40,358 nucleotides of DNA from Syntrophaceae bacterium (GTDB taxonomy: Bacteria; Desulfobacterota; BSN033; UBA1163), in the NCBI GenBank assembly GCA_013388635.1, contig JACAEX010000072.1, positions 1-40,358 on the forward strand, in the 5' to 3' direction. Positions within the stretch are counted from its first letter, which is position 1; each line of letters starts with the position of its first letter. The notes under the pieces are model-generated. The model was not told where the DNA came from. It saw nothing but the letters and a program-made list of their open reading frames with translations, and searched no databases. The position numbers were made by a program, and so were the translations under genes. Shown here piece after piece: positions 8,666 through 35,853 of the stretch.

Positions 8666-9640
8666 ATGAAAAGGGTAAGAATTCTTTTTCTGTGCGTTGG
8701 TCTAATCGGGCTATGGATCGTGGGTAGTTGGAATATTGCCTCTGCTGAATATCCTGAAAGGGCGATTGAGATCATCGTTCCCTTTGGCGTGGGCGGAGGG
8801 AGCGATACCGCGGCCAGGGCTGTGGCAGAAGGGCTCAAGCCTCTCCTTAAAGTACCGCTCGTGATAACGAATATGCCCGGTGGCGCAGCCACCAAGGGGA
8901 TGCTCCATGTGGCCCAGCAACCTGCGGATGGGTATACGATATTGGCTGTCACCACGTCCCATCTGATCGATGCAGTTCAGCCAAAGACCCGGGCCCACAT
9001 CCTGAGGGACTTCGATCCCATCATGAGAATTCAGTGGGATACCACCACCGTTTTCATTTCTGCAGAATCGAAGTTCGAGACCCTGAAGGATCTCTTGGAG
9101 TACGGCAAGAAGAACCCGAGGCTTCTCAAATTCGGAGGGACCTCTCCTGGTGGATGGGCGGAGATTCAGACCGTGGCCTTCTTCAAAAAACTCGGCGTGG
9201 AGGTCACGTTCGTTCCCTTCGCGGCAGGTGCGGAGACCAAAGCTGCGATCTTAGGAGGACATATTCATGGGGCATGCGAAGAACTGGCAGAGACCCTTCC
9301 TCTGGTCAAGGCTGGCAAATTGAGGGCCGTCGCTGTGATCATGGAGAAGAGGCATCCAGCCCTTCCCGATGTCCCGTGCACGGCTGAATTGGGCGTCGAT
9401 TATACCCATGGCTTGATGAGGGCATGGGCGGTCAGGAAGGGCACGCCTCCCGATCGGATCAAATACCTGCACGACGTGATCAAAAAGGCTCTCGATGCAC
9501 CGGTCTATAAGAAATTTGTCCAGGATAATCATCTCTATGCACGACCTGGATATTTGAGCCCGGAGGATACGAGAAGATATTGGGAGGATGAGGTCCGTTT
9601 CTTTACCGGAGTGCTGAAGGAACTGGGTTATGTCAAATAG
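8666..9640 (+). CDS. tctC: Tripartite tricarboxylate transporter substrate-binding protein (TctC/Bug family)
   Basis: A 324-residue periplasmic binding protein of the TTT system. The signal peptide is MKRVRILFLCVGLIGLWIVG through ASA, and the mature protein begins EYPERAIEIIVPFG. This matches the Bug pattern YP-x-(R/K)-x-I-x-(I/L)-I-V-P-F, which is followed by GGGSDTAARAVA, NMPGGAATKGM and QQPADGYTI. The later segments GACEELAETLPLVKAGKLRA and ALPDVPCTAELG are also typical. Bug proteins bind citrate, other carboxylates, amino acids or nicotinate, so the ligand is not certain. Neighbours argue for a tricarboxylate. A hairpin just after the gene probably raises its expression relative to tctBA. 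Confidence 0.92.
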   Translation: MKRVRILFLCVGLIGLWIVGSWNIASAEYPERAIEIIVPFGVGGGSDTAARAVAEGLKPLLKVPLVITNMPGGAATKGMLHVAQQPADGYTILAVTTSHLIDAVQPKTRAHILRDFDPIMRIQWDTTTVFISAESKFETLKDLLEYGKKNPRLLKFGGTSPGGWAEIQTVAFFKKLGVEVTFVPFAAGAETKAAILGGHIHGACEELAETLPLVKAGKLRAVAVIMEKRHPALPDVPCTAELGVDYTHGLMRAWAVRKGTPPDRIKYLHDVIKKALDAPVYKKFVQDNHLYARPGYLSPEDTRRYWEDEVRFFTGVLKELGYVK

Positions 9641-9719: not shown

Positions 9720-10235
9720 ATGAAGAAGAATGAGATCGTCCCTACCCTTATCATCATTGCCTTTTTCGGTTTGATGTTGATCCATGCGATGGGCTTGCGC
9801 TTCGTCAAACGTTTTGGCGAGATGGGGAGCGGATTCTGGCCCATCCTGATCCTGGCCGCAGCCTTTCTTCTCAGCATCCTTCTTCTGATCTCGCATCTCA
9901 TAAAGTTCCAAAGAGAAAGAAAGCAGGCTCCAGAGGAGAGGTCAACCTCATCCGAAGAAGGGATAGACTTAAAGAATCGGAGAAAAAGACTGGCACTCAG
10001 CGTCGTCTGTCTTCTGGGATATATCCTCCTGATGCCGTGGATTGGGTTCGTTCTCTCCACCCTCCTCTATGTATTCGCTTTTATTCTGGCCCTTGGAGAA
10101 AGAAGAAGGTTGATCCTGGCCATCTCTCCTTTCCTGGTGACTGGGCTGACCGTAATCGTCTTTGCGAAGTTAATTTTAATGCCCTTGCCCAGGGGCGTCG
10201 ATATCTTCGCAGCATTCAGCCGGCTGATCTACTGA
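9720..10235 (+). CDS. tctB: Tripartite tricarboxylate transporter small membrane subunit TctB
   Basis: A 171-residue membrane protein with four predicted membrane segments, at about 7-24, 41-60, 99-118 and 120-160. It has a charged central loop (FQRERKQAPEERSTSSEEG). The FGEMGSGFWPILI segment near residues 35-47 is typical of TctB, where a G-x-x-F-x-P motif is common. Its length is normal. It sits between tctC and tctA, 19 bases from the latter. TctB sequences are poorly conserved, so the call leans on topology and position. Confidence 0.85.
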   Translation: MKKNEIVPTLIIIAFFGLMLIHAMGLRFVKRFGEMGSGFWPILILAAAFLLSILLLISHLIKFQRERKQAPEERSTSSEEGIDLKNRRKRLALSVVCLLGYILLMPWIGFVLSTLLYVFAFILALGERRRLILAISPFLVTGLTVIVFAKLILMPLPRGVDIFAAFSRLIY

Positions 10236-10254
10236 TCGAGAGGAAGGCCCATTG

Positions 10255-11745
10255 ATGCTCGAGCACTATCTGACCGCATTTTCAACGATCTTCCTTCCTC
10301 AGAATCTTTTGGCGTTATGTCTCGGAGGGCTCTGGGGTCTGATGGCCGGCGCACTCCCAGGGATCAGCACCTCGATGGGAGTGGTCCTTCTCACCCCTTT
10401 CACCTACTCCATGTCTCCACTGACAGCCTTTACGATTCTGGTCAGTGCCTATTGCGGAGGGATTACCGGTGGTTCGATCACCTCCATTCTATTTGGGATA
10501 CCCGGAGAACCTTCTTCTGTACCGACGGTCATCGAGGGGCATTCCCTCGCGAAACAGGGCCGTGCGGCCTATGCACTCTGGGTCTTCCTGCTCTGTTCGA
10601 TCGGAGGGGGTCTGTTCAGCGTCTTTGTGATGATGGCGGCCACCCCCCTGATTGCCAATTTTGCCCTGCAATTCGGGCCTCCAGAATACTTCGGATTGAC
10701 CATGCTCGGTTTGAGCGTGGTTTCAGGGCTCTCAGGAGGTTCTGTCTTAAAAGGTCTGATCTCCTGCCTGTTTGGCATCTTCTTAGCCACGATTGGAACG
10801 GATGGGATTACAGGTGTCGAAAGATTTACATTTGGGACGACGATCCTTCTCGGCGGGATAAGCTTTATCACGGCCATGGTCGGATTGCTCGCTGTATCTG
10901 AGATATTGATCGAGGCCGAAGAGCCGTTTCAGCAGTATAAGGGCTCTGTCGATTACAAGGGCATGAGGGGAGAGATGCCCAGGGTCTCTGAATTTAAGAG
11001 GCACTGGCTCATCTTAACCAAATCACCGATCATCGGAACCGTTATCGGAGCCCTGCCGGGTGCAGGGGCAACGATCGCAGCCTTTTTGGCTTATGGTGAA
11101 GCGGCCAGGTCATCGAAGAATCCTGAGAAGTTCGGACATGGGGCCGTGGACGGGTTGATGGCTGCGGAGTGCGCAAACAACGCCTCGACCGGAGGCTCGA
11201 TGACCATCCTCCTGTCGCTTGGCATCCCCGGAAGCAATACGACGGCCATGCTGATCGCCGCCTTTATGATCCACGGGCTCCAGCCAGGTCCATTACTGCT
11301 CGGCCAGAGGCCCGATATTGTCTACGGCATCTTTGTGGCAATGCTCATGGCCAATCTCTTTCTGTTAGGGCTGACCATCATAGGGATTCGTCTCTTTCTG
11401 CAGCTCAATAGACTTCCTTATTCCGTATTTTCTGTAGCGATCATGATCCTCTGCGTCGTCGGGGCCTTTGGATTGAGCAATAACATGGACGATATCTACC
11501 TGATGTTTCTGTTTGGATTGATCGGGTATTATATGAGAAAATATAGCTTTCCAATTGCCCCTGCAGTCCTGGGGCTTGTTCTGGGAAATCTCGCCGAGCT
11601 CTCTTTGAGGAGGACACTTCTGCTCTCCCTGGGCGACCCCCTCATCCTGATCTCCCGGCCGATCAGCGCCATCCTGCTGGCAGCTTCTATCTTTTCGATT
11701 CTATATCCCCTTTTCAAGAGACCAAAGGCCCTTAAGAGTGTCTAA
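10255..11745 (+). CDS. tctA: Tripartite tricarboxylate transporter large permease TctA
   Basis: The large, cation-coupled permease of the TTT system, 496 residues with about 11-12 membrane segments. Family signatures are GALPGISTSMGVVLLTPFTY near the N-terminus, GGITGGSITSILFGIPGEPS, GALPGAGATIAAFLAYGEA and ANNASTGGSMTILLSLGIPG in the second half. The two GxPG repeats reflect the internal duplication of the family. I prefer the ATG at 10255 over the overlapping TTG at 10252; AGGAAGG lies just upstream. Together with the two upstream genes it forms a complete TTT transporter. Confidence 0.94.
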   Translation: MLEHYLTAFSTIFLPQNLLALCLGGLWGLMAGALPGISTSMGVVLLTPFTYSMSPLTAFTILVSAYCGGITGGSITSILFGIPGEPSSVPTVIEGHSLAKQGRAAYALWVFLLCSIGGGLFSVFVMMAATPLIANFALQFGPPEYFGLTMLGLSVVSGLSGGSVLKGLISCLFGIFLATIGTDGITGVERFTFGTTILLGGISFITAMVGLLAVSEILIEAEEPFQQYKGSVDYKGMRGEMPRVSEFKRHWLILTKSPIIGTVIGALPGAGATIAAFLAYGEAARSSKNPEKFGHGAVDGLMAAECANNASTGGSMTILLSLGIPGSNTTAMLIAAFMIHGLQPGPLLLGQRPDIVYGIFVAMLMANLFLLGLTIIGIRLFLQLNRLPYSVFSVAIMILCVVGAFGLSNNMDDIYLMFLFGLIGYYMRKYSFPIAPAVLGLVLGNLAELSLRRTLLLSLGDPLILISRPISAILLAASIFSILYPLFKRPKALKSV

Positions 11746-11914
11746 AAATGAAAGAGAGCACGAGAGACTTTGTAAATGCTCAGCAGCAAGCAGGTTGATC
11801 GAACCAATCCGTACGCCCGTTGCCGGCTGTTGTGATGCATAACGCAGAGTACTTTACAACATGGACGGCGGGTGGTTATAAAGAGGATATTCGACCGATA
11901 TAAGGAGAGTGTTG
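11746..11914. other. tctA to PrpF-family gene gap
   Basis: This 169-base gap holds nothing certain. The words TTGTAAA and TTTACAA form a widely spaced 7-base inverted pair, and the PrpF-type gene has the ribosome site TAAGGAGAG at 11901-11909. No promoter or terminator stands out. Confidence 0.4.
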
Positions 11915-13054
11915 ATGCGGCGAAGAACCTTTTTCCGATGTACGATCATGCGAGGGGGAACGAGCAAAGGGATCTTCCTGATGGAGGAGGATCTTCCTCC
12001 AGACCCTGAGCTGAGAGAGCGGATCATCCTGGCCATCTTTGGGAGTCCGGATATTCGTCAGATCGACGGTCTCGGAGGTGCGGATTCTCTGACGAGCAAA
12101 CTGGCACTGGTCGCACCTTCGAACGAGCCGGATCGAGATGTCACCTATACCTTTGGTGCGGTGGGAATTGACAAGCCCTTTGTGGACTACTCGGCCAATT
12201 GCGGGAACATCAGCTCTGCAGTCGGACCCTATGCGATTGATCGAGGATGGGTCAAGGCTGAGGAGCCCTATACCACCGTGCGGATATTTAACACCAACAC
12301 GAAGAAGATGATCCATGCCAGAGTTCCGGTCAGGAGAGGGAAGGTCGTTTCAGAAGGCGACTATGCGATCGATGGCGTGCCGGGAACAGGTGCGAAGATC
12401 GAACTGACCTTCATGGACCCCGGAGGGGCCCTGACCGGGAGGCTTCTTCCCACGGGGAATGAAGTGGATGAGGTGGTCCTCGAAACTGGAGAGAGGTTCT
12501 TGGTGACGATCGTCGATGCGGGCAATCCCACAGCCTTTCTTCTTGCAGAGGAACTGGGCCTCAGGGGAACTGAGCTTCCTGAATTTCTGGAGCGGGCGCC
12601 GGAAATCAAGGCCAAACTGGAGGGCCTCCGCAAGAAGGTTGGAGAACTCAGCGGAATTCCCTTCACCCCATCAATCCCGAAGATTGCATTGGTCGCCAGC
12701 CCTCAGGACTACACCACGATCGCGGGTCAATCGGTGAGAAAAGAGGAGATTGATATCCTCGCCAGGTTGATGGCAATGGGAAGATTACACAAGGCCTTTG
12801 CGATCACTGCGGGCATTCCTGCTGCAGCCGCTTCAGCTCTTCCAGGCTCCCTCGTCCACAGGGTGATGGCAAAGGCCGGAGGCATTTCGGGAGAAGGGAG
12901 GTTGACCATCGGTCATCCTTCTGGCCAGATGGACGTTGGGGTCGAGGCAAGGGAGGAAGAGGGCAGGGTCCGGGTGGTGAGCTGTACCATCGGCAGGACG
13001 GCCCGAAAGATCATGGAAGGCCGGGTCTACATATCAAAGAAGGTCTATTCTTAA
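11915..13054 (+). CDS. PrpF family isomerase (2-methylaconitate/aconitate/4-oxalomesaconate type)
   Basis: A member of the PrpF family, which moves a double bond or interconverts cis/trans isomers of unsaturated tricarboxylates such as 2-methylaconitate, aconitate or oxalomesaconate. Family landmarks counted from this start: CTIMRGGTSKGIFL near residues 9-22, the IDGLGGADSLTSKLAL segment with Lys62, and DYSANCGNISSAVGP with Cys96. Lys and Cys at these places are the catalytic pair in PrpF. The C-terminal half repeats the fold, with the PTAFLLAEELGLRG segment between. The length (379) is typical. The ATG at 11915 has AGGAG seven bases upstream; GTG 11909 and TTG 11912 are less likely. No prpB, prpC or prpD is nearby. 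Placement between a tricarboxylate transporter and aconitase favours an aconitate-type substrate. Confidence 0.88.
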   Translation: MRRRTFFRCTIMRGGTSKGIFLMEEDLPPDPELRERIILAIFGSPDIRQIDGLGGADSLTSKLALVAPSNEPDRDVTYTFGAVGIDKPFVDYSANCGNISSAVGPYAIDRGWVKAEEPYTTVRIFNTNTKKMIHARVPVRRGKVVSEGDYAIDGVPGTGAKIELTFMDPGGALTGRLLPTGNEVDEVVLETGERFLVTIVDAGNPTAFLLAEELGLRGTELPEFLERAPEIKAKLEGLRKKVGELSGIPFTPSIPKIALVASPQDYTTIAGQSVRKEEIDILARLMAMGRLHKAFAITAGIPAAAASALPGSLVHRVMAKAGGISGEGRLTIGHPSGQMDVGVEAREEEGRVRVVSCTIGRTARKIMEGRVYISKKVYS

Positions 13055-13216: not shown

Positions 13217-14845
13217 ATGTCCGGTTATCCAGAGAGCATGAGAGAATCGATCAGAAGGGTGGAGGCAACTCGGAGCTCAAGGGCGGAGCAGGAGATCCCC
13301 ATGCTCTCACTCAAAGAACGTCAGGAGTTGCTTCAGAGGTTTCACCCTGACTACCGGGAGGGTGGCAGACGGGAGATCAGGGTCGGTGTGAACAGAGGGG
13401 AGAGGGTCCCCAATGAGTTGGCCGATCTCTTTGAGGGGATCAGTCTGGTCCGGCCCGGAGAGATCGACCTCGATCATGTGAGACAAGAAGTGGATGTTCT
13501 GGTCATCGGAGGGGGAGGCGGAGGGGCCGCGGCTGCTCTCTTCGCAGCCGAAAGCGGGGCAAAGACACTGGTCACGACCAAACTCCGTTTTGGAGATTCG
13601 AATACGATCATGGCCGAAGGAGGGATCCAGGCAGCTGTGGGAAAGTTTGACTCTCCTGCCCTTCACTATCTGGATACCCTGGGAGGAGGAGGGTTCCAAA
13701 ACCTTCCCCATCTGGTTCACGCCCTGGTCTCCGACGCCCCTGTGATCTTAGACTGGCTTGTCCGGCTCGGAGTGATGTTTGACCGGAAAGAGAATGGAGA
13801 TCTCCTCGCCTCTTTCGCAGGCGGACAGTGCCGGCGGAGGGTCCATTCTGCGGCGGACTACACTGGCATGGAGATCATGCGGGTGCTGAGGGATGAGGTC
13901 TATGGCCAGGGCATTGAGGTTCTCGAGTTCTCGCCGGCCGTGGATCTGGTTCTCGATGAGAAGAGAAGGTGCGCAGGGGCTGTCTTCGTGGATCTCGATA
14001 CAGGAGAAAGGTTTGTGATCCGGGCGAAGACCGTCATCCTTGCGACAGGCGGGATCGGCCGGCTCCATATCCAGGGCTTTCCCACGACGAACCATTATGG
14101 CGCGACGGCTGATGGACTGGTGATTGCCAACCGTGCTGGGGCCAGGATGATCTTCATGGATTCCATCCAGTTTCATCCGACCGGAACGGCCTATCCCGAA
14201 CAGTTAATGGGCCTCCTTGTCTCAGAGGCATTCCGTGGCTGGAGCGCGCAGTTGGTCAATGGCGAAGGGGAACGATTCATCCATGAGCTCGAGACGCGGG
14301 ACATCACCTCCTCGGCAACGATTCGCGAGGTCGTGGACCGGAAAAAGGGGGTGATCACCCCCACGGGCATGCACGGGGTGTGGCTGGATACACCTCTGGT
14401 AGAGATCAAAAAGGGGAAGGGGACGATCCACCGGATCTTCCCTCACCTCTTTCACCGATTTCACACCTATGGCATTGACATCACAAAGGAGCCGGTTCTG
14501 GTCTATCCGACGCAGCATTATCAGAACGGCGGCCTCCTCATCGATGCATCCGGGGAGACGACTGTGCAAAATCTCTTTGCCGCAGGAGAGGTCTCAGGCG
14601 GAGTCCATGGTAGAAATCGATTGGGAGGCAACTCGCTCCTCGACATCTTTGTCTTTGGCCGCCGCGCCGGAATGGAAGCCGCCTCCCGGGCAAAAGAGAT
14701 TGTGATTGGAAAGCTCAGTTTAGACCATGTGATCGAATATGAAGAGGAGTTGGAGAGATTGGGGGTATTGAAGAGAGAGATCAAGGCTCCGCTCCTCCTT
14801 CCTGACTATCGGTACGAGAAGGCATTGGGAAGGGTCCATCAGTAG
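13217..14845 (+). CDS. Soluble fumarate reductase/succinate dehydrogenase-like flavoprotein (FAD-binding subunit)
   Basis: A 542-residue FAD oxidoreductase of the SdhA/FrdA family. An extension of about 90 residues (KERQELLQRFHPDYREGG) precedes the dinucleotide fold VDVLVIGGGGGGAAAALFAA (92-111). Catalytic positions are kept: His320 (QFHPTG), Arg361 (ETRDITSS), His434 (HYQNGG) and Arg467 (GRNRLGGNSLLD). The His that binds FAD covalently in membrane SdhA/FrdA is replaced: the segment reads SNTIMAEGG with Asn129. Flavin should therefore be non-covalent. The protein ends about 60 residues after the FAD domain, so the usual C-terminal helical domain is mostly missing. The partner Fe-S gene starts 7 bases later and no membrane anchor is present. 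Fumarate, succinate or a tricarboxylate such as tricarballylate are possible substrates. ATGs at 13238 and 13304 are alternative starts; 13304 has the better ribosome site. Confidence 0.85.
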   Translation: MSGYPESMRESIRRVEATRSSRAEQEIPMLSLKERQELLQRFHPDYREGGRREIRVGVNRGERVPNELADLFEGISLVRPGEIDLDHVRQEVDVLVIGGGGGGAAAALFAAESGAKTLVTTKLRFGDSNTIMAEGGIQAAVGKFDSPALHYLDTLGGGGFQNLPHLVHALVSDAPVILDWLVRLGVMFDRKENGDLLASFAGGQCRRRVHSAADYTGMEIMRVLRDEVYGQGIEVLEFSPAVDLVLDEKRRCAGAVFVDLDTGERFVIRAKTVILATGGIGRLHIQGFPTTNHYGATADGLVIANRAGARMIFMDSIQFHPTGTAYPEQLMGLLVSEAFRGWSAQLVNGEGERFIHELETRDITSSATIREVVDRKKGVITPTGMHGVWLDTPLVEIKKGKGTIHRIFPHLFHRFHTYGIDITKEPVLVYPTQHYQNGGLLIDASGETTVQNLFAAGEVSGGVHGRNRLGGNSLLDIFVFGRRAGMEAASRAKEIVIGKLSLDHVIEYEEELERLGVLKREIKAPLLLPDYRYEKALGRVHQ

Positions 14846-14852
14846 GCTGAGC

Positions 14853-15593
14853 ATGGGAGATCAGGGGAGGAGATTTTTCTCCATTTACATCTTCGGTAAG
14901 AAGTACCAGGTTCCAGAGGGCCTGACCATCCAGAAGGCCATGGAGTTCGCAGGATATCAGTTTATTCGATCCTGCGGATGCCGGGGCGGTATTTGCGGGG
15001 CCTGCTTCACAGAGTATCGAACTCCGGGTAGCTATCAGCTCAAGGGCGCCCTGGCCTGTCAGGCGTTGGCCGAACCGGAGATGCGGATCACGCAATCTCC
15101 TTTTGTGCCCATGCACCGGGCCGACTATCACCTTGAGGCCCTGAGGGCCCAACCCGGAATATTAGGAAAGATCTATCCAGAGATCTACCGCTGTCTTCAG
15201 TGCAATACGTGCACCCGGATCTGTCCGATGGAGATCGACGTCATGGATTACATCGCCCATGCCATTCGGGGAGATATCGAGAAGGTGGCTCATCTCTCCT
15301 TTCAATGTATCCTCTGTGGAGCCTGCGCCGCAAGATGTCCGGCTGAGATCTCCCAGCCTTATGTGGCGCTGTTAGCCCGGAGAATCTATGGAAGGCATAT
15401 TCTCTCCCTGCCCGCAGGTCTGGAGCAGAGGATCTCTGATATTAAGTCAGGACGATATCACAGGGTCTTAGAAAGACTGACCCAACTGCAGATCGAGGAG
15501 TTGATGAGAGTGTATATCCAGAGGGAGCAGGAGCCCCAGGAAGCGGATCGATGGGTTCCGAAGAATCCGAACTTCCCCGAGGATCTCTTTTAG
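14853..15593 (+). CDS. Succinate dehydrogenase/fumarate reductase-like iron-sulfur subunit
   Basis: A 246-residue electron-transfer partner of the preceding flavoprotein. The N-terminal plant-ferredoxin-like domain has a [2Fe-2S] set at Cys43, Cys48, Cys51 and Cys69 (CRGGICGAC). A C-terminal domain carries CLQCNTCTRICP (Cys114, 117, 120, 124) and CILCGACAARCP (Cys152, 155, 158, 162). The latter two sets suit two [4Fe-4S] clusters, whereas classical SdhB/FrdB has one [4Fe-4S] and one [3Fe-4S]. Here the fourth Cys of each set is present. The CCG domains of thiol:fumarate reductase TfrB are absent. Electron acceptor and cellular location are unknown; no anchor subunit is encoded nearby, which suggests a cytoplasmic complex. 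Confidence 0.87.
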   Translation: MGDQGRRFFSIYIFGKKYQVPEGLTIQKAMEFAGYQFIRSCGCRGGICGACFTEYRTPGSYQLKGALACQALAEPEMRITQSPFVPMHRADYHLEALRAQPGILGKIYPEIYRCLQCNTCTRICPMEIDVMDYIAHAIRGDIEKVAHLSFQCILCGACAARCPAEISQPYVALLARRIYGRHILSLPAGLEQRISDIKSGRYHRVLERLTQLQIEELMRVYIQREQEPQEADRWVPKNPNFPEDLF

Positions 15594-15644: not shown

Positions 15645-17567
15645 ATGGGAAAGAACCTGATCGAGAAGATATTAGAGGCCCATCTGGTATCGGGTCAGAT
15701 TCGTCAGGGCGAGACCCTCGCGGTCTCCATCGATCAAACCTTGATGCATGATGCAACCGGCACAATGGCTGCCTTGGAGTTTGAGGCCCTGTCCATCCCC
15801 AGGGTCAGGACGAAACTCTCTGTCGTCTATGTGGACCACAATACGCTCCAGCTCGGCTTTGAAAACGCGGACGATCATTTATACCTCCAGAGCTTTGCAG
15901 CCAAATATGGACTCCATTTTTCGAGGCCGGGCAACGGCATCTGCCATCAGGTTCATCTGGAGAGGTTTGCGGTACCAGGCCAGATCCTTCTGGGCGCGGA
16001 CAGTCATACCCCGACCTGTGGAGGGATGGGGATGCTCGCTGTTGGCGTGGGAGGGTTGGATGTCGCACTGGCCATGGCAGGGGAGCCTTTTTACATCCAG
16101 GTCCCCAAGGTGGTGGCGGTGAAACTGATAGGTCAACGGCCTCCCTGGGTCAGTGCCAAAGATATTGTTCTCGAAATGCTTCGTCGCCTGACGGTCAAAG
16201 GAGGGGTGATGAAGGCATTTGAATATGGCGGCCCCGGGGTGAAGAGTTTAACCGTGCCGGAAAGGGCAACCATCGCCAATATGGGAGCAGAGCTCGGGGC
16301 CACGACATCGATCTTTCCAAGCGATGAGAAGACCCTCGCTTTTTTGAAGGCCCAGAGGAGGGAAAAGGATTGGATTCCCTTGAGCCCTGATCCCGATGCA
16401 ACGTATGATGAGATCCTGGAGATCGATCTGGCAAGGCTGGAGCCCCTGATCGCCCAACCTCACAGCCCGGATCGCGTCTGTCCGGTGAGGGAAGTGGAGG
16501 GGCTTCGGGTCGACCAGATCGCGATCGGGAGCTGCACCAACTCCTCCTATCAGGACCTGATGACCGTGGCCTCGATTCTGAAAGGAAGAACGATCCCTCC
16601 CCATGTCAGCCTGGTTATCTCACCAGGGTCGAGACAGGTTCTCAAGATGTTGGCTTTGAAGGGCGCCCTTTCTGATCTTCTCGAATCAGGGGCTCGAATC
16701 CTGGAAAGCACTTGCGGGCCTTGCATTGGAATGGGCCAGGCCCCCTGTACCAATGGAGTCTCTCTGAGGACCTTTAACCGGAATTTCCAGGGAAGATCCG
16801 GTACCGAGAGCGCCCGGGTCTATCTGGTCAGCCCTGAAGTGGCCGCTGCTTCTGCGCTCAAAGGGGTGATCTCGGATCCCCGGAGACTTGGGCGCCCCCC
16901 TTCCATTGATCTGCCGGAGGTCTATCCGGTCGAAGACAACATGGTCATCCCTCCCCTGTCACCCGAGAGGGGAGCGGAGATCGAGACAGTCCGGGGTCCC
17001 AATATCAAGCCGGTTCCGCTGAGAAAAAGCTTACCCAGAGAGTTGAGGGGTCGCATCCTGGTAAAGGTTTCAGACAATGTCACCACGGATGACATCATTC
17101 CAGCAGGGGCCAGGGTCCTTCCGCTCCGGTCGAACATCCCTGCCATCTCTGAATATGTCTTCGAAAGATTGGACCCTTCATTTGCCAGGAGGGCCAAAGA
17201 GTTCGGTGGCGGATTTATCGTGGCAGGACATAACTACGGTCAGGGATCGAGTCGAGAACATGCCGCGTTATGCCCCATGTTTCTGGGAGTTCAGGCGGTC
17301 ATTGCCAAATCATTTGCCCGAATCCATCTGGCAAATCTTATAAACTTTGGGATCCTTCCTCTGATCTTTAACGAAGAAGGGGATTACCAGGTTTTAGAAC
17401 AGGGAGATGAGATTGAGATTGACGTCGGAGATCTGAGCGATAAGGTCACCCTGATCAACCTGACAAAAGATAAGAAGATCTTCCTCATCCCCCTGCTCAA
17501 TGAGAGGGAGAGGATCCTTGTCAGACATGGTGGCGCATTGCCCTTTGTCAAGGAGAAGAGATTTTAA
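15645..17567 (+). CDS. acn: Aconitate hydratase (compact, Aquifex-like type)
   Basis: Interconverts citrate and isocitrate through cis-aconitate using a [4Fe-4S] cluster. The three cluster Cys are visible: Cys297 in IAIGSCTNSSYQD, and Cys357 and Cys360 in STCGPCIGMGQAP. Substrate-site segments include GADSHTPTCGGMGMLAVGVG (117-136). The C-terminal swivel domain follows with VSDNVTTDDIIPAG (475-488) and HNYGQGSSREHAALCP (529-544). At 640 residues it is far shorter than AcnA or AcnB (about 850-900) and closer to the compact, LeuC/LeuD-like form. The ATG lies 51 bases after the Fe-S subunit gene; icd follows 12 bases after its stop. It is the central step of the pathway suggested by this block. 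Confidence 0.93.
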   Translation: MGKNLIEKILEAHLVSGQIRQGETLAVSIDQTLMHDATGTMAALEFEALSIPRVRTKLSVVYVDHNTLQLGFENADDHLYLQSFAAKYGLHFSRPGNGICHQVHLERFAVPGQILLGADSHTPTCGGMGMLAVGVGGLDVALAMAGEPFYIQVPKVVAVKLIGQRPPWVSAKDIVLEMLRRLTVKGGVMKAFEYGGPGVKSLTVPERATIANMGAELGATTSIFPSDEKTLAFLKAQRREKDWIPLSPDPDATYDEILEIDLARLEPLIAQPHSPDRVCPVREVEGLRVDQIAIGSCTNSSYQDLMTVASILKGRTIPPHVSLVISPGSRQVLKMLALKGALSDLLESGARILESTCGPCIGMGQAPCTNGVSLRTFNRNFQGRSGTESARVYLVSPEVAAASALKGVISDPRRLGRPPSIDLPEVYPVEDNMVIPPLSPERGAEIETVRGPNIKPVPLRKSLPRELRGRILVKVSDNVTTDDIIPAGARVLPLRSNIPAISEYVFERLDPSFARRAKEFGGGFIVAGHNYGQGSSREHAALCPMFLGVQAVIAKSFARIHLANLINFGILPLIFNEEGDYQVLEQGDEIEIDVGDLSDKVTLINLTKDKKIFLIPLLNERERILVRHGGALPFVKEKRF

Positions 17568-17579
17568 AGGAGAAGAGCC

Positions 17580-18794
17580 ATGGCCGATAAGATTGAGATC
17601 CGTTCCGACGGAACCCTTCAGGTTCCAGAAGTTCCGATCATTCCCTATATCGAAGGGGATGGGGTGGGGCCTGATATCTGGAGGGCATCGGTCCGGGTAT
17701 TCGACGAAGCGATTGAGAAGTGCTACGGAGGGAGGAAGAGGGTTCAATGGCTTGAAGTCTATGCAGGAGAGAAGGCCTTTCAGCTGAAAGGGGAGTGGGC
17801 CCCTGAGGAAACGATCGAGGCCATTCGGGAATACAAGGTGGGGATCAAGGGACCGCTGACAACCCCTGTGGGAGGAGGGATACGGAGTATCAATGTGCTT
17901 TTACGTCAGAGGCTCGACCTCTATGCCTGTATTCGACCGGTCAAGTATATCTCAGGAACACCCAGCCCGGTCAAACATCCGGAAAAGGTGGACATGGTGG
18001 TCTTCAGGGAGAATACAGAGGATGTCTATGCGGGCATCGAATGGAGAGAAGGAACAGAGGAGGCCTCTCGGATCCGTCTCTTTCTTGAGAGAGAGATGGG
18101 AAAGAAGATCAGGGAGGATTCCGGGATCGGAATTAAACCGATCAGCCGTTACGGAACGAAACGCCTTGTCCGCATGGCGATCCAGTATGCCCTTTCCCAT
18201 GGTCGGAAGCGTGTCACATTGGTTCATAAGGGAAACATCATGAAGTTTACTGAGGGCGCGTTCCGCGACTGGGGATACGAGGTAGCCCGGGAGGAGTTCA
18301 GGGATCAGGTCCTTTTGGAGAGCGAATGGGGTGACAGGAAGGCAGGGGATCTTCCCTCGGGGAAGATCCTTCTCAACGATCGAATCGCTGATGCGATGTT
18401 TCAACAGATCCTTCTAAGGCCTGAGGACTATGATGTCCTGGCCATGCCCAACCTGAATGGAGATTACATGTCCGACGCCCTGGCTGCGCAGGTGGGGGGC
18501 CTGGGCATGGCTCCTGGGGCCAACATCGGAGATCGGGCTGCGGTCTTTGAGGCGACTCATGGAACAGCGCCCAAATATGCGAATCAGGATGTGATCAATC
18601 CTGGCTCCCTCATCCTTTCTGGGGCAATGATGTTCGACTATCTGGGCTGGGATGAAGTGGCCCAAAGGATAAAAAAGGCGCTGGAAAAGACGATTTCGAA
18701 GAAGATCGTCACCTACGATCTCGCGCGTCAGATGAGAGGAGCGAAGAAACGCAAATGCTCTGAATTTGGGTCTGCCATCATCGAAAACCTTTGA
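17580..18794 (+). CDS. icd: Isocitrate dehydrogenase, NADP-dependent
   Basis: Oxidative decarboxylation of isocitrate to 2-oxoglutarate. The 404-residue protein shows the bacterial homodimeric Icd layout: [14 protein letters not shown] near the N-terminus and [20 protein letters not shown] at 91-110. The latter includes Ser103, equivalent to the regulatory Ser113 of E. coli Icd. [14 protein letters not shown] (142-155) follows. The coenzyme loop [11 protein letters not shown] (from His327) has Lys332 and Tyr333, the pair that reads the NADP 2'-phosphate. The Asp metal ligands lie in [14 protein letters not shown]. The ATG follows AAAGGAGAAGAG. No AceK kinase is visible. The stop codon overlaps a likely promoter for the kor genes. 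Confidence 0.96.
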
Positions 18795-19051: not shown

Positions 19052-19366
19052 ATGGTAGAGGCGAAGAAGAAAAAGGGCGAAGAACCGAAGATCGATATTT
19101 ACAAGGCCTGGTGCAAGGCGTGCGGGATCTGTGTGGCCTTCTGTCCGACGGGTGTTCTGGCCAAAGATGAAGCAGGCTATCCCTATGTGAAAGAGATTGA
19201 GAAGTGCATCAATTGTGGATGGTGTGAGATCCGCTGTCCTGATTTTGCGATCACCGTGGAAGCGAGAACCAAGGAGAGAAAGAAGGTCGAGGGGAAAATT
19301 GGAGAGAAAGAATCGAAGGGCGAGGACGAAGTCTCACCAGAAAGAATGGTTGCTCCAGGGCAATGA
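19052..19366 (+). CDS. korD: 2-Oxoacid:ferredoxin oxidoreductase delta subunit (2x[4Fe-4S] ferredoxin)
   Basis: A 104-residue ferredoxin-like subunit with two complete Cys sets: CKACGICVAFCP (Cys21, 24, 27, 31) and CINCGWCEIRCP (Cys52, 55, 58, 62). A charged Lys/Glu-rich tail follows. It should carry electrons from the TPP and Fe-S centres of KorB to free ferredoxin. It starts the kor set, and its end overlaps the start of korA by 17 bases. The ATG at 19052 is 19 bases after a Leu-rich, weakly matched ribosome site; no better start is available. Confidence 0.92.
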   Translation: MVEAKKKKGEEPKIDIYKAWCKACGICVAFCPTGVLAKDEAGYPYVKEIEKCINCGWCEIRCPDFAITVEARTKERKKVEGKIGEKESKGEDEVSPERMVAPGQ

Positions 19367-20468
19367 AGCCGTGGTGGAGGGAGCGCTGCGCGCAGGTTGC
19401 CGTTTCTTTGCAGGCTATCCCATCACTCCTGCCACAGAGATCTCCGAAATCCTATCCGTTAAACTTCCTCAAGTAGACGGCACGTTCATCCAGATGGAGG
19501 ACGAGATCGCCAGTCTGGGCGCTGTAATCGGCGCCTCCTTAGCGGGTGTGAAGGCGATGACCGCGACCAGCGGCCCGGGATTCTCTCTGATGCAGGAGAA
19601 TCTTGGCTTCGCCGTGATTGCAGAAGTTCCCTGTGTCATTGTCAATGTGATGCGCGGAGGGCCCAGTACAGGCCTTCCCACATCCCCGGCCCAGGGCGAT
19701 GTGATGCAGGCCCGGTGGGGGACGCACGGGGATCACCCCATCATCGTCCTCTCCGCCTCCACCGTTCGGGAATGTTATGAGGTCACCATTCACGCCTTCA
19801 ACTTCTCCGAGAAATATCGAACCCCTGTCATTGTATTGATCGATGAGGTGGTCGCGCATATGCGGGAGAAGATGACCCTGGACGATGAGGAGAAGATAGA
19901 GATATTCAATCGCGTCAAACCGACCGTGCCGCCGGAATGGTACATCCCCTATGAGGATACGCCGAGGGGAATTCCGGCCATGGCCAACTTCGGGGAGGGA
20001 TACCGGTACCATGTCACAGGTCTGACCCATGACATTCGCGGTTTTCCCACCTCGAGGCCCGATGAGATCGGGCCCTTTATTGCCAGGCTCCATCGGAAGA
20101 TCAGTCAACATTTTTCAGAGATTCAGATGGGAGAGTTCTACCAGACCGAGGATGCGGAGATCACGATCGTGGCCTATGGATGTGTGGCTCGATCGGCGAA
20201 GAGGGCGGTCCGGGAGGCCAGGGAGAAAGGGATCAAGGTCGGGCTTCTAAAACTGACCACAATATGGCCCTTCATGAGATCTTCTGTGGAGAAGGTGCTT
20301 CAGAGTTCGAAGGTTCTGATCGTTCCCGAGATGAATATGGGTCAGCTCTCCCGGGAGGTGAAGCGGGTCAACCGGGGGATCGCAAAGGTGATTACGATCA
20401 ATAAGGTAGACGGGACGATCATCACTCCAGGAGAGATCATGAATCGCATCACGGAGGCCAAGTCATAA
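19350..20468 (+). CDS. korA: 2-Oxoglutarate:ferredoxin oxidoreductase alpha subunit
   Basis: Alpha subunit of the enzyme that converts 2-oxoglutarate and CoA to succinyl-CoA, CO2 and reduced ferredoxin, or the reverse. The conserved N-terminus LQGNEAVVEGALRAGCRFFA followed by GYPITPATEI is intact. TSGPGFSLMQENLGFA, RGGPSTGLPTSPAQGD and the late VPEMNMGQLSREVKR segment are typical. There is no ATG near the conserved start. The best candidate is TTG at 19350, giving 372 residues; a TTG at 19197 would read through korD in another frame and is unlikely. Adjacent icd favours 2-oxoglutarate over branched-chain 2-oxoacids, which related Vor enzymes use. Confidence 0.92.
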   Translation: MLQGNEAVVEGALRAGCRFFAGYPITPATEISEILSVKLPQVDGTFIQMEDEIASLGAVIGASLAGVKAMTATSGPGFSLMQENLGFAVIAEVPCVIVNVMRGGPSTGLPTSPAQGDVMQARWGTHGDHPIIVLSASTVRECYEVTIHAFNFSEKYRTPVIVLIDEVVAHMREKMTLDDEEKIEIFNRVKPTVPPEWYIPYEDTPRGIPAMANFGEGYRYHVTGLTHDIRGFPTSRPDEIGPFIARLHRKISQHFSEIQMGEFYQTEDAEITIVAYGCVARSAKRAVREAREKGIKVGLLKLTTIWPFMRSSVEKVLQSSKVLIVPEMNMGQLSREVKRVNRGIAKVITINKVDGTIITPGEIMNRITEAKS

Positions 20469-20607: not shown

Positions 20608-21444
20608 ATGGCTGAAATTACGAAGCTGATTCATAAATATCTCCGCCATGACAAGAAGTTCCCTCATGTCTGGTGTCCGGGTTGCGGGATCGGGATCATG
20701 CTGGGCGCTCTGATCCGGGCCATCGACCGGATCGGTTATGAGAAGGATGAGATCGTCCTGGTCTCCGGGATCGGATGTTCCGGAAGGCTTCCGGTCTATG
20801 TGGACTTCAACACCCTTCATACCACCCATGGCCGGGCCCTGACTTTTGCGACCGGAGTGAAGCTGGCCAAACCCAGCCTGAAGGTGATCGTCATCATGGG
20901 CGATGGCGATGCAGTGGCGATCGGAGGGAATCACTTCATCCATGCCGCGCGGAGGAACATCGATCTCACGGCCATCATCCTTAACAACAGCGTCTACGGG
21001 ATGACCGGTGGACAATACTCTCCAACCACGCCCTATGGAATGAGATCCACGACTACGGTTTACTCAAACATCGAGCAGGACTTCAAGATCTCAGAATTGG
21101 CGGTCACGGCAGGAGCTGTCTTTGTCGGAAGGGGAACGGTTTATCATGCCAAGCTCCTGGATAGCCTGATCGAAAAGGCCCTGCTCAAGAAAGGCTTTTC
21201 CGTGGTGGAGGTGATTTCCCACTGCCATACTCAGTATGGAAGACAGAATCGTTTAGGAAGCGCTGTCGAGATGATGGAATGGCAGCGAGATCACGCCGTC
21301 GCAGTGGAAAAGGCAGCCACGATGAAACCCGAGGAGTTACGGGATAAGATCGTCATCGGCGTATTGGTGGACAAGGAGCTTCCGGTTTATCAGGATGAGT
21401 ATGACAAGATCCGGGAACGAGCCAAAGAGACAATAAGGAGATAG
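20608..21444 (+). CDS. korB: 2-Oxoglutarate:ferredoxin oxidoreductase beta subunit
   Basis: TPP- and Fe-S-binding subunit, 278 residues. The proximal [4Fe-4S] ligands are visible as CPGCGIG (Cys23, Cys26), Cys57 in GIGCSGR and Cys206 in SHCHTQYGRQN. The TPP/Mg site reads GDGD at 98-101, then NN at 126-127 and YGMTGGQ at 130-136. The length is normal for the KorB/VorB type. It is separated from korA by a repeat-filled gap of 139 bases, but order and strand argue for one operon. Confidence 0.95.
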   Translation: MAEITKLIHKYLRHDKKFPHVWCPGCGIGIMLGALIRAIDRIGYEKDEIVLVSGIGCSGRLPVYVDFNTLHTTHGRALTFATGVKLAKPSLKVIVIMGDGDAVAIGGNHFIHAARRNIDLTAIILNNSVYGMTGGQYSPTTPYGMRSTTTVYSNIEQDFKISELAVTAGAVFVGRGTVYHAKLLDSLIEKALLKKGFSVVEVISHCHTQYGRQNRLGSAVEMMEWQRDHAVAVEKAATMKPEELRDKIVIGVLVDKELPVYQDEYDKIRERAKETIRR

Positions 21445-21551: not shown

Positions 21552-22154
21552 ATGAGTTTTAGATACGAAATGAGGTTGAGCGGTTCAGGAGGTCAGGGGC
21601 TGATCCTGATGGGGATCATCCTGGCGGAGGCGATCGGAATTTATGACGGAAAATTTGTGGCCCAGACCCAGAGCTACGGGCCGGAGGCAAGAGGAGGATC
21701 GAGCAAAGCAGAGGTGATCGTCAGCGATGAGGAGATCGACTACCCCAAGGCGATGCAGCTCGATCTCCTCCTGGCGATGAACCAGAAATCCTGCGACGAG
21801 TTTTATCCAGACCTCAAGCCAGAAGGGATCCTCATTGTCGACTCCACCTTTGTCACCCAGGTCCCCAGCCTGAAGGCCTTCCAGATCCCTTTTGCTCGAA
21901 TTGCCCGCGAGAAGTTCAAAAGGGAGGTGGTGGCGAACATCATCGGCCTCGGAGCGCTGAGCCAGTTAAGCCCTATTGTTTCTGCCAAGGCGGTCGAATT
22001 GGCAGTATTGGCACGGGTGCCCAAGGGGACAGAGAAGCTGAATCGGGATGCCTTAAAGGCGGGAATCGCTGCGGCCAAAAAGGCGAAGCGGGAATGGATG
22101 AAGAGGGAGTCACTTCCCGAAATTCCCAAAGAGGACTTATTAGATTCGTATTGA
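21552..22154 (+). CDS. korC: 2-Oxoglutarate:ferredoxin oxidoreductase gamma subunit
   Basis: A 200-residue gamma subunit (POR_N/EKR type), which helps bind CoA in oxoacid:ferredoxin oxidoreductases. The family start RLSGSGGQGLILMGIILAEA is clear. It is followed by QTQSYGPEARGGSSKAEVIV, DYPKAMQLDLLLAMNQ and NIIGLGALSQL. It completes the KorDABC set encoded in order on one strand. The ATG at 21552 is preceded by GGGGTTGAA, a weak ribosome site. Confidence 0.95.
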   Translation: MSFRYEMRLSGSGGQGLILMGIILAEAIGIYDGKFVAQTQSYGPEARGGSSKAEVIVSDEEIDYPKAMQLDLLLAMNQKSCDEFYPDLKPEGILIVDSTFVTQVPSLKAFQIPFARIAREKFKREVVANIIGLGALSQLSPIVSAKAVELAVLARVPKGTEKLNRDALKAGIAAAKKAKREWMKRESLPEIPKEDLLDSY

Positions 22155-29606: not shown

Positions 29607-30407
29607 ATGACCTTCACCATTGCGAAGCTCAACCGATTTCCCAAGGAAGAGCGAAACCGAATCTACCTTCGGCTCGTCCCTGAATCGATATTTGAGAGGT
29701 TTCAGATTGACCGCAGGACCCTGAGAAATCAGTTCGGCGAAAGGGTGGTCAGGGGGATCTTTCCCCCTGACGACAATTTCGGATGCATCGAAGTGAAGTA
29801 CCGATCGGAGGACCGGGACTGCATCTTTTCGTGTCAGGTTTCTCTCGAGGCCTTCATGCAGAGCCTCCACCTCGACTTTCTGATCATCAACAACCCTTTT
29901 TCAGAGCGGTTTAACATCGATGTTGACGACCAGGGCAGAGATACCCTCTTCGGGATAAGATTGAGAAATATCCCTGAAGAGATCCGATCTATGGAGGCAG
30001 GGCTTGCCCCTGGAATGGTCAGGCCAGGCCTGAGGCTGGTGAAGGAGTTCGTCGGCTGTCTGGATGGTTTCATGGACCTGTTGGGGCTTAAGACCATTAC
30101 GATCGGCGCCTTCTTCTACCACAATGCCGTCATCTGGGAAAGATACGGGTTCGGCTACTTCAGGGGTCGCAAGGTCATGGAAAGGATCCATAGGGAATTT
30201 CAACCTGGAGGGATGCTCTACGAAAAGATCGATGATTCGACCCCCTTCCGCAGAAAGGGCATGGAACGCACCATCCGGGGCAGGAGCTGGGCCATCCACG
30301 ATGGCGTCTATCTGGAAGCCTTTGGTGAAGAGTGGGAGAGCCCTGTGATGTACCGGATGCTGGGAAAGGACTTCAAGGTCAATACGTTTCCCGGGCAGAT
30401 CTATTAG
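29607..30407 (+). CDS. Hypothetical protein, 266 residues, family not recognised
   Basis: The reading frame is long and has the codon style of its neighbours, so it is probably a real gene. I do not recognise the family. It looks soluble and mixed alpha/beta. Notable segments are KEERNRIYLRLVPESIFERF near the N-terminus, CQVSLEAFMQSLHLDFLIIN, and a C-terminal region with NAVIWERYGFGYFRGRKVME, faintly like the substrate-side end of acetyltransferases but without an acetyl-CoA loop. An Arg-rich stretch (RRKGMERTIRGRSW) precedes the end. No good ribosome site precedes the ATG at 29607. Its last 29 bases overlap the 3' end of the convergent CoA-transferase/GNAT gene. Confidence 0.7.
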   Translation: MTFTIAKLNRFPKEERNRIYLRLVPESIFERFQIDRRTLRNQFGERVVRGIFPPDDNFGCIEVKYRSEDRDCIFSCQVSLEAFMQSLHLDFLIINNPFSERFNIDVDDQGRDTLFGIRLRNIPEEIRSMEAGLAPGMVRPGLRLVKEFVGCLDGFMDLLGLKTITIGAFFYHNAVIWERYGFGYFRGRKVMERIHREFQPGGMLYEKIDDSTPFRRKGMERTIRGRSWAIHDGVYLEAFGEEWESPVMYRMLGKDFKVNTFPGQIY

Positions 30408-32280
30408 AGGAAAGAAAGGCCATCTTCAGTTCATACACGCCTTCTTCCCGTCTCTTTTCGATCTCGAATCCCATCTTTTCAAAGAGATGGAGCATCGGTC
30501 TGTTTTCAACCAGGACCTCCGCAGAGAAACCGAGAAGTCCCTGTCTCTTTGCTAAGTAGGTCAGATAGGCCAGCAGTTCGGTGCCGATCCCTCTGTTCTG
30601 ACTGTCGTCCCTGACGGCAAACGCAACCTCTGCGGTATGGTTTGTCTCGTCGATGCTATACTGGCCCACGCCTAAGACCTCCTCCTTCTCCCCTTTCTGA
30701 ATCACGGCGAGGATCACCATCTGCCTTGTATAGTCGATCACCACAAATTCCTGGAGACGCTCGTGGGGCATATCCGTCCGCACGGAGATGAACCTTCGGT
30801 AGAGGCTATTGTCCGAAAGGGAATAGAAGAAGTCCTTCAGCAGCGGTTCATCGCTCATCCTGACAGGTCGGAGAAGAATCTCCATGCCCGTCTTTGTTGT
30901 TCGGTAGACCTCCAGGTGCTCGGGATATTCACCTTTCTCTCCGGCGATGAAGGCCTGATCCTTGAAGATCAAGTTTCTCTTTTTTGCCTCTTCGATGAGC
31001 CAGGGGCGAAAGGTCGGGTGGGCGATGGAGATCAATGCCATGGCCCTTTCTCGGAGGTTCTTTCCCTGAAGATAGGCAATCCCGTATTCCGTGACAACAT
31101 AGTAAACATCGCCGCGGTGGAGCGTCACCCCTGCCCCTTCCCTCAGGAAAGGGACGATCCTCGAAACCCTGCCGCCCTCTGCCGTAGAGGGCATCGCCAG
31201 AATGGTTTTCCCATGTCGGGATAAGACAGCTCCCCTCATAAAGTCGGCCTGCCCTCCGATGCCGCTGTAGAGCAGGCTCCCGATCGATTCGGCCGTGGCC
31301 TGACCCGTCAGGTCGATCTCCAAGGCCGTGTTGATCGCTGTCATCGGATCGTGCTGGGCGATCACCAGAGGGTTGTTGGTATAGTCTATCGTTCGAAACT
31401 CAATGGCAGGGTTATCATGGATATATTCGTAAGTCTCCTTTCTCCCCATACAGAAAGCGGCCACCGTCTTACCCCGATGGATGCTCTTCCTTGTATTGTC
31501 GATCACGCGTCTCTTCATCAGCTCCACGATCCCGTCGGTCAGCAGCTCGGTGTGAACGCCCAGATGTCGCTTCTGGTTGAGATTGGAAAGGATCGCATTC
31601 GGGATGCTCCCGTACCCGACCTGAATCGTCTCTCCGTCCTGGATGAGACGGGAGACATACTTTCCGATCTGTTGGGCAATATCGCTTTCCGCCTCTGAGA
31701 TATATTCCAGGATCGGTTCATCATAAGGGATGATGAAATCGACATCGTCCATATGGACGAACCCATCGCCGTGAACGCGCGGCATCTCTGAGTTGACCTG
31801 GGCGATGACCAGCGAGGCCTTGTCGGCAGCGGCCTTGACAATATCCACACTCACTCCAAGGCTCATATAGCCGTGGTCGTCAGGAGGGGAGGTCTGAATG
31901 AGGGCCACGTCAATTGGAACAAGGCCGCGATAAAAGAGATCCGGAACCTTTGAAAGGAAGATCGGGGTATAGTCGGCAACCCCCTTGTTCACCGCTTCCC
32001 TGGTGTTGTTGGCGATGAAGAAGGAGTTATGGCGGAAGTTCTGCCTGAACTTCTCATCTGCATAGGGGGCGATCCCGAGGGCCCATACCTGAAAGACCTC
32101 CGCATCAAAAAAGGCGGTGGGATGAGATTCGACATAACGGATCAAAGCGCGGACGAGGTATTGAGGCTCGCCGCAGCCCGTGCCGATGAATATCCGGTCT
32201 CCGCGCTGGATATGGCTGAATATCCTCTCCTCCGATTCAAACTTTTCCGGATAGGTCTTCTTGATCTCCTCAATATCCAC
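30379..32280 (-). CDS. Acetyl-CoA hydrolase/CoA-transferase fused to a C-terminal GNAT acetyltransferase
   Basis: A 633-residue two-domain protein. Residues 10-440 match the acetyl-CoA hydrolase/4-hydroxybutyrate CoA-transferase family: GVHTELLTDGIVEL with the likely catalytic Glu245, SGIGGQADFMRGA at 339-351 and AMPSTAEGGRVSRIVP at 362-377. Residues 466-622 form a GNAT domain with the acetyl-CoA loop QNRGIGTELL at 561-570 and NRPMLHLFEKMGFE before the last strand. The first domain should move CoA between acetate and another acid or hydrolyse acyl-CoA; the second may acetylate a protein Lys or a small amine. The start is GTG at 32278-32280 after GGGGGGA. It is divergent from the acyl-CoA ligase and lies close to acs. 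Confidence 0.9.
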   Translation of the reverse strand: MDIEEIKKTYPEKFESEERIFSHIQRGDRIFIGTGCGEPQYLVRALIRYVESHPTAFFDAEVFQVWALGIAPYADEKFRQNFRHNSFFIANNTREAVNKGVADYTPIFLSKVPDLFYRGLVPIDVALIQTSPPDDHGYMSLGVSVDIVKAAADKASLVIAQVNSEMPRVHGDGFVHMDDVDFIIPYDEPILEYISEAESDIAQQIGKYVSRLIQDGETIQVGYGSIPNAILSNLNQKRHLGVHTELLTDGIVELMKRRVIDNTRKSIHRGKTVAAFCMGRKETYEYIHDNPAIEFRTIDYTNNPLVIAQHDPMTAINTALEIDLTGQATAESIGSLLYSGIGGQADFMRGAVLSRHGKTILAMPSTAEGGRVSRIVPFLREGAGVTLHRGDVYYVVTEYGIAYLQGKNLRERAMALISIAHPTFRPWLIEEAKKRNLIFKDQAFIAGEKGEYPEHLEVYRTTKTGMEILLRPVRMSDEPLLKDFFYSLSDNSLYRRFISVRTDMPHERLQEFVVIDYTRQMVILAVIQKGEKEEVLGVGQYSIDETNHTAEVAFAVRDDSQNRGIGTELLAYLTYLAKRQGLLGFSAEVLVENRPMLHLFEKMGFEIEKRREEGVYELKMAFLSSNRSARETY

Positions 32281-34782: not shown

Positions 34783-34831
34783 GGAGCTTGGGATCGAACA
34801 TACCCGATCCCGCGATTGGAGGTAGATGACC

Positions 34832-35704: not shown

Positions 35705-35807
35705 ATCCGAAGCACGAAATCCGAAATTCGAAACAGATTCGAATGGCCAAAATGTTACAATTAGTAAATGAATGTAAGTTTTGAAAAATTGGGTTTGTTT
35801 CGGATTT
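35703..35807. repeat. AAATCCGAAA inverted/direct repeats between metF and the HdrA fusion
   Basis: AAATCCGAA occurs at 35703-35711 and 35717-35725, followed by ATTCGAA words at about 35726-35744. TTTCGGATTT at 35798-35807 is the perfect inverse of AAATCCGAAA at 35717-35726. The repeat begins inside the metF stop codon. Confidence 0.7.
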
Positions 35808-35853
35808 ATAAATATTACAGGTTCATCAAAAAGCAGTAGGCGATAGGGACAAC

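Follow-up and report, generated by a model that had tools for sequence, protein, structure and literature searches.

What does a fumarate reductase-like flavoprotein do when it is encoded between an isomerase of the PrpF family and an aconitase? The question is raised by a stretch of 40,358 nucleotides from a Syntrophaceae bacterium (assembly GCA_013388635.1, contig JACAEX010000072.1, positions 1 to 40,358 of the forward strand), called the window below, which carries adjacent genes for an FrdA-like flavoprotein and its iron-sulfur (Fe-S) subunit. The answer favoured here, to which we give an even chance, is that the pair is a soluble tricarballylate (propane-1,2,3-tricarboxylate) dehydrogenase with non-covalently bound flavin adenine dinucleotide (FAD), recruited from a succinate/fumarate-type family whose members are mostly linked to Hdr or fumarase genes. 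The two subunits, separated by 7 bases, are encoded as follows:

13217 to 14845, plus strand: FrdA-like flavoprotein, proposed catalytic subunit of the tricarballylate dehydrogenase (intact open reading frame, 542 amino acids).
14853 to 15593, plus strand: Fe-S subunit with a plant-type [2Fe-2S] domain and an HdrC-like double [4Fe-4S] domain (intact open reading frame, 246 amino acids, 12 Cys; its structure model partly matches HdrC).

In an alignment with FrdA, SdhA and NadB of Escherichia coli, Asn129 of the flavoprotein occupies the position of the FAD-linking His45, as the initial annotation had claimed, and His320, Ser336-Glu337, Arg361 and His434 correspond to SdhA His242, Thr254-Glu255, Arg286 and His354. 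The three catalytic residues His320, Arg361 and His434 had been named correctly, while the fourth needs to be moved by one position, since residue 467 is Asn and it is Arg468 that aligns to SdhA Arg399. Asn129, Glu337, Arg361, His434 and Arg468 are kept in all 126 distinct rows of the family, and His320 in 125 (the remaining row is unreadable); position 336 holds Thr in 107 rows, Ser in 18 and Ala in 1. Because it is invariant across these rows, the active-site pattern is not a product of chance. The FAD_binding_2 domain spans residues 93-474, so the N-terminal extension of about 90 residues noticed earlier is real; it is kept in the 26 family rows displayed in the alignment, the end of which likewise confirms that the helical C-terminal domain is almost absent. 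The Cys sets of the Fe-S subunit (43/48/51/69, 114/117/120/124 and 152/155/158/162) do not vary in any of the 30 sequences aligned, the window included. They comprise a [2Fe-2S] set and two full CxxCxxCxxxC sets for [4Fe-4S] clusters, as first described, and not the Cys set of a classical [3Fe-4S] subunit. No SdhC/D-like membrane anchor appears among the Pfam/NCBIfam matches of the cluster genes; the rest of the genome was not searched for one. The pair should be a soluble, non-covalent-FAD enzyme that works like succinate dehydrogenase.

The structure model of the flavoprotein (predicted local distance difference test score 85.7, predicted template modelling score 0.87) best matches flavocytochrome c3 (Z 37.6, 390 residues, 2.7 Å) and also FrdA (Z 36.0, 430 residues, 4.1 Å), all within residues 70-530; that the first 69 residues fall outside the model's matches in the Protein Data Bank is no evidence for a new fold. 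The model of the Fe-S subunit (local distance score 86.0) weakly matches many [2Fe-2S]/[4Fe-4S] electron-transfer subunits, and its C-terminal half partly matches HdrC of an Elp-Hdr complex (rank 6, 104 columns, 4.7 Å, E 5e-4). SdhB chains are not in the top 50 Foldseek rows for this model, which excludes nothing. Of the 30 aligned Fe-S subunits, only that of the window and those of two relatives (L016 and L019) end in a particular tail of about 20 residues (window 15519-15590), which is a possible docking site.

It is the surrounding operon that first points away from succinate. Its order is TctCBA – PrpF – FrdAB – aconitase – isocitrate dehydrogenase – KorDABC. Neighbouring genes are 7-163 bases apart as far as isocitrate dehydrogenase, and 257 bases precede the ferredoxin gene:

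8666 to 9640, plus strand: TctC-like solute receptor of a tripartite tricarboxylate transporter (TTT) (PF03401, 138 bits).
9720 to 10235, plus strand: TctB-like small membrane subunit (PF07331, 68 bits).
10252 to 11745, plus strand: TctA-like large membrane subunit (PF01970, 480 bits).
11909 to 13054, plus strand: PrpF-family isomerase, proposed aconitate cis-trans isomerase (PF04303, 402 bits; Lys64, Cys98).
15645 to 17567, plus strand: aconitate hydratase of the short type (NF005558, 939 bits, cut-off 612).
17580 to 18794, plus strand: NADP-isocitrate dehydrogenase (TIGR00183, 654 bits, cut-off 567).
19052 to 19366, plus strand: two-cluster ferredoxin, KorD-like by position (PF12838/PF13237; no NCBIfam model at E 1e-20).
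19197 to 20468, plus strand: KorA-like alpha subunit of a 2-oxoacid:acceptor oxidoreductase (NF006412, 606 bits, cut-off 411); the mechanical start is too early, the model match starting at residue 48.
20608 to 21444, plus strand: KorB-like beta subunit (best model NF007207, 326 bits, below the cut-off of 364).
21552 to 22154, plus strand: KorC-like gamma subunit (PF01558, 119 bits).

Dehydrogenation of the succinate type leaves both carboxylates trans, as is established for the conversion of succinate to fumarate. With tricarballylate, the same chemistry would yield trans-aconitate, the fumarate-like isomer, and since the intermediate of aconitase is cis-aconitate, an aconitate isomerase would be needed between the two enzymes. 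In the pathway that we infer, from its substrate and trans product to its direction and electron acceptor, TctCBA would import tricarballylate, from which the FrdAB-like pair would remove two hydrogens; PrpF would turn trans- into cis-aconitate, aconitase would form isocitrate, isocitrate dehydrogenase 2-oxoglutarate, and KorDABC succinyl-CoA. Electrons would run from the flavin through the [2Fe-2S] cluster and then both [4Fe-4S] clusters, and would be passed on to a soluble partner, which in relatives is probably an HdrB-type protein. Lys64 and Cys98 of the window PrpF align to the catalytic Lys73 and Cys107 of Shewanella PrpF. The latter interconverts trans- and cis-aconitate, and its structure with trans-aconitate has been solved (PMC5690661); TarA and TbrA are likewise aconitate isomerases of the PrpF superfamily (PMC11495376). 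For the window protein, we propose the same activity.

A second line of evidence comes from the flavoprotein itself, in which one loop departs from the rest of the family:

13814 to 13843, plus strand: codons 200-209 of the flavoprotein, the signature loop Phe-Ala-Gly-Gly-Gln-Cys-Arg-Arg-Arg-Val, with residue 201 at the position of SdhA Phe119 and NadB Glu121.

That position is known for its part in gating the substrate and recognising aspartate. At residues 200-201, 10 of the 126 rows have Phe-Ala and 2 have Leu-Ala, the others including 83 with His-Gly and 11 with Met-Pro. When columns are screened for residues that are invariant in nine PrpF-linked enzymes and found in no more than 6 of the 116 rows without Phe-Ala, five are returned (Ser199, Phe200, Ala201, Val209 and Val372), four of them within the eleven residues 199-209, at the substrate site. 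The loop goes together with PrpF: where 6 kb of flank or more is available, 8 of 9 Phe-Ala enzymes have a PrpF gene no more than 6 kb away, as against 0 of 2 Leu-Ala enzymes and 0 of 69 others (8/9 vs 0/69, Fisher p 4e-10, a value made too small by near-copies). These context counts leave out 46 of the 126 rows, each with less than 6 kb of flank in total, among them L016, although a PrpF gene is found near its Phe-Ala enzyme. For rows L143, L145 and L147, the context was taken from L016, L018 and L065, which cover the same genes at greater length, and row L174 ends 302 bases past FrdA. One of the 69 others (L067) has a PrpF-like gene 8.9 kb away, outside the limit and with opposite-strand genes between. 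Within the window's class, a family member occurs in 23 of 23 genomes and the window type in three (the window itself and enzymes at 82% and 78% identity), other matches being at 53-58%; PrpF is present in 3/3 genomes with the window-type enzyme vs 2/20 without. Here and below, where the sequence was not fetched, "window-type" is set by identity (at least 78%, or 63-64%, vs 53-59% for the rest) and not by the loop.

The same cassette recurs in relatives with different parts in the same roles. Desulfotruncus arcticus (L018) has the order DctPQM – PrpF – isocitrate dehydrogenase – FrdB – FrdA – aconitase – HdrC – HdrB, and when 113 genomes of its class were searched at E 1e-190, four further enzymes at 63-64% identity came to light, three of them with the whole cassette and the fourth on a contig that stops just past FrdA. 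Three of the D. arcticus-type genomes (L175-L177) have a second, ordinary copy beside HdrCB. Among 17 genomes examined in that class, PrpF occurs in 5/5 with the window-type FrdA vs 1/12 others, which is the fair count before looking; the exception, Desulfofundulus thermobenzoicus (L192), has the cassette with its FrdA cut off by the contig end, and as this was found by following that genome's PrpF, the count of 6/6 vs 0/11 (Fisher) holds only after inspection. Three kinds of isocitrate dehydrogenase are found at the locus: TIGR00183 in the window, an NAD-isocitrate dehydrogenase-like protein in D. arcticus (best model 469 bits, below the cut-off of 510) and PRK08299 in genome G011 (630 bits, cut-off 335), so that it is isocitrate oxidation that is conserved. 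Two kinds of transporter serve the cassette, TTT and tripartite ATP-independent periplasmic (TRAP), and no importer was recognised among the further G011 genes scanned. Such use of different parts in the same roles is good evidence for a single pathway that comprises import, PrpF chemistry, the flavoenzyme, aconitase and isocitrate oxidation.

Two relatives add genes of their own. In the closest one (L127), an MmgE/PrpD-family gene that is absent from the window operon lies between TctA and PrpF (9724-11082, minus strand). In G011 (L128:10847-16313, minus strand), a carboxyltransferase, an OAD-beta-type sodium pump and a methylmalonyl-CoA mutase family protein stand beside PrpF-FrdAB; these would suit succinyl-CoA as end product, as if it were decarboxylated to propionyl-CoA.

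The family from which the pair would have been recruited is widespread. When each species was represented by one genome, 156 loci were confirmed, of which the best 80 show 51-82% identity over nearly full length and come from many bacterial and archaeal phyla; the window pair shares with them full-length similarity including the N-terminal extension, Asn129 and the 12 Cys. The main structural oddities of the pair are thus family traits, which have probably been noticed already. Clustering of neighbours shows that fumarase and succinyl-CoA synthetase genes often stand nearby, as do HdrC-HdrB, HdrA, MvhD and hydrogenase or Flx-like genes. Of the 69 loci that lack the signature loop, 39 have an Hdr gene no more than 6 kb away, 25 a fumarase or SucCD gene, and 60 one or both, while HdrB and HdrC lie near 4 of the 9 Phe-Ala loci with enough flank. 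One other branch (L035, L039, L042, L048 and L063) stands beside fumarase-like, CitE/CitF-like and formate-dehydrogenase-gamma-like cytochrome b genes, sometimes with MmgE/PrpD genes, for which a methylsuccinate/mesaconate/citramalate route is one guess.

In a tree with E. coli SdhA, FrdA and NadB as its only references, these three fall outside the 108 family rows (Shimodaira-Hasegawa-like approximate likelihood ratio test 99); in this check, set beforehand, the pair does not lie inside the SdhA/FrdA clade. The window clade joins a Spirochaetales relative (100/100 and 100/99), with the D. arcticus group apart. A single clade of the first five PrpF-linked enzymes is rejected by the approximately unbiased test (p 0.003), and a group of 12 rows (these five, the two Leu-Ala enzymes, that of Candidatus Adiutrix and four more D. 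arcticus relatives) is not (p 0.24); the 12 rows were picked after the motif had been seen, and the result is compatible with one origin or two. In 392 genomes from the phylum of L016, no second match was found at E 1e-190 or better. The early suggestion of a soluble enzyme with an Hdr-type acceptor thus stands in part: the enzyme is soluble, carries flavin and Fe-S clusters and falls apart from the classical SdhA, FrdA and NadB rows, its family is Hdr-linked, and the Fe-S model partly matches HdrC.

Several observations weigh against a tricarballylate dehydrogenase. No HdrBC genes were found within 6 kb of the window pair. The enzyme of Candidatus Adiutrix (L065) carries the Phe-Ala loop with fumarase and citrate-lyase neighbours, and no PrpF match was found in that genome; the two Leu-Ala genomes carry PrpF genes away from the enzyme, and in the window's class PrpF also occurs in two genomes that lack the window-type enzyme, their PrpF proteins being more distant (51% and 49% vs 67-69%). 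As near-copies are among the loci and genomes counted, the counts are not independent. Among solved structures, 3-methylitaconate isomerase (328 bits) is closer to the window PrpF than Shewanella PrpF (266 bits), and both NCBIfam models that match the window protein score below cut-off. Finally, the title of a study on Salmonella TcuA reportedly gives cis-aconitate as the product, for which no isomerase would be needed; the trans product proposed here is deduced from FrdA chemistry.

A more conventional explanation is that the pair is a plain soluble succinate dehydrogenase or fumarate reductase that closes a segment of the tricarboxylic acid cycle beside aconitase, isocitrate dehydrogenase and Kor, with PrpF incidental. 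It accounts for the retained succinate-binding residues, for the fumarase or SucCD genes at 25 of the 69 other loci, for the fumarase neighbours of the Adiutrix Phe-Ala enzyme and for the succinyl-CoA of Kor, which leads to succinate. Yet the same genome encodes two other succinate-type enzymes, namely a 56% paralogue on contig 36, in the context FumB...Hdr...MvhD...FrdBA-SucCD, and an SdhA-like protein (40% identity to E. coli SdhA) whose gene lies beside one for an SdhB-like protein, so that a further one is not obviously needed. The window operon showed neither a fumarase nor a succinyl-CoA synthetase, PrpF tracks the Phe-Ala form and not the 69 other loci, and the substrate loop is altered in this group. 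We therefore regard this explanation as unlikely: the succinate/fumarate residues of the initial annotation are kept, but the operon, the paralogue in a succinate-type context and the altered loop make the tricarballylate/aconitate couple the most likely one.

That couple could also run in reverse, with imported trans-aconitate oxidised in part through PrpF, aconitase, isocitrate dehydrogenase and Kor, and FrdAB acting as an aconitate reductase whose tricarballylate is excreted as an electron sink. Nothing in the sequence fixes the direction, and HdrCB partners could supply the electrons. However, Desulfotruncus and Desulfofundulus are sulfate reducers, with other electron sinks, and we judge the reverse direction to be quite unlikely. 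In its favour, plants such as maize are rich in trans-aconitate, Bacillus velezensis takes this acid up with an importer and a PrpF-type isomerase (PMC11495376), and rumen fermentation yields tricarballylate as an end product (PMC5830445).

A different branched succinate as substrate, for instance one that bears a methyl or carboxyalkyl group, would make PrpF an isomerase of the methylitaconate or oxalomesaconate type. This reading would agree with the nearest solved PrpF relative and with the best-scoring PrpF model, 4-oxalomesaconate tautomerase (339 bits, cut-off 440), but is very improbable, as the window aconitase and isocitrate dehydrogenase pass equivalog cut-offs, a methylated pathway does not obviously need them, and three types of isocitrate dehydrogenase serve the locus. 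A standard SdhAB with a distant anchor was rejected because of the clade, in the tree with three references, and of the cysteines.

Returning to tricarballylate dehydrogenase, several known systems resemble the window in part. The Flx-Hdr "succinate operon" of Pseudoclostridium thermosuccinogenes is described as having two fumarate reductase genes beside fumarase and an Flx-Hdr complex, like the Flx-Hdr loci of the family, and a ferredoxin link through Hdr is proposed there for its soluble fumarate reductase. By this description, the context there is one of succinate and fumarate, whereas the window pair has PrpF, aconitase and isocitrate dehydrogenase neighbours and a changed loop. Salmonella TcuA, with TcuB and TcuC, shares the proposed substrate and the presence of flavoprotein and transporter in one operon; the excerpted account names tcuA, tcuB (FADH2:quinone oxidoreductase) and tcuC (transporter) and no isomerase. 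The window flavoprotein is not TcuA, scoring 46.3 bits with NF006130 against a cut-off of 369, and no place in the genome scores above that cut-off. The B. velezensis tar operon combines an importer (TarB) with a PrpF-superfamily aconitate isomerase (TarA), as in the window, but the excerpt of PMC11495376 names no flavoprotein pair, aconitase, isocitrate dehydrogenase or Kor. The coenzyme M/coenzyme B fumarate reductase TfrAB also joins an FrdA-like and an Fe-S subunit, and TfrA is the best NCBIfam model of the window flavoprotein. Identity with TfrAB was rejected, as NF004900 gives 356.6 bits against a cut-off of 718 and window 14853-15590 has no PF02754 (CCG) match at E 0.001. Both TfrA and TcuA were judged by profile scores.

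Elsewhere in the window, a methylenetetrahydrofolate-reductase-like gene and then a 1501-amino-acid HdrA-like multi-domain flavoprotein that reaches the window end (34826-40358) look like a complex of the MetF-Hdr type. Directly upstream of the MetF-like gene, a small protein (34210-34782) combines MerR/HTH_17 DNA-binding and response-regulator receiver domains. A GNAT acetyltransferase domain is fused to an acetyl-CoA hydrolase/transferase at 30379-32280 (minus strand).

An open-licence literature search, covering titles and abstract openings, found no such enzyme described. Tentatively, and with slightly less confidence than in the assignment itself, we suggest that the pair represents a TcuA-independent, soluble and oxygen-independent tricarballylate/aconitate enzyme, wired to Hdr in relatives, whose oxidation of tricarballylate (or reduction of aconitate) could couple to electron bifurcation or confurcation. 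Such an enzyme would stand at the start of a complete anaerobic pathway from tricarballylate to succinyl-CoA that was assembled more than once with different transporters and isocitrate dehydrogenases. The best-scoring named models for the flavoprotein are fumarate reductases and aspartate oxidases. The same cassette is present in named, cultured strains, which makes the claim directly testable. If it is true, one loop signature marks a new substrate class in a widespread family of anaerobic flavoenzymes and would correct genome reconstructions.

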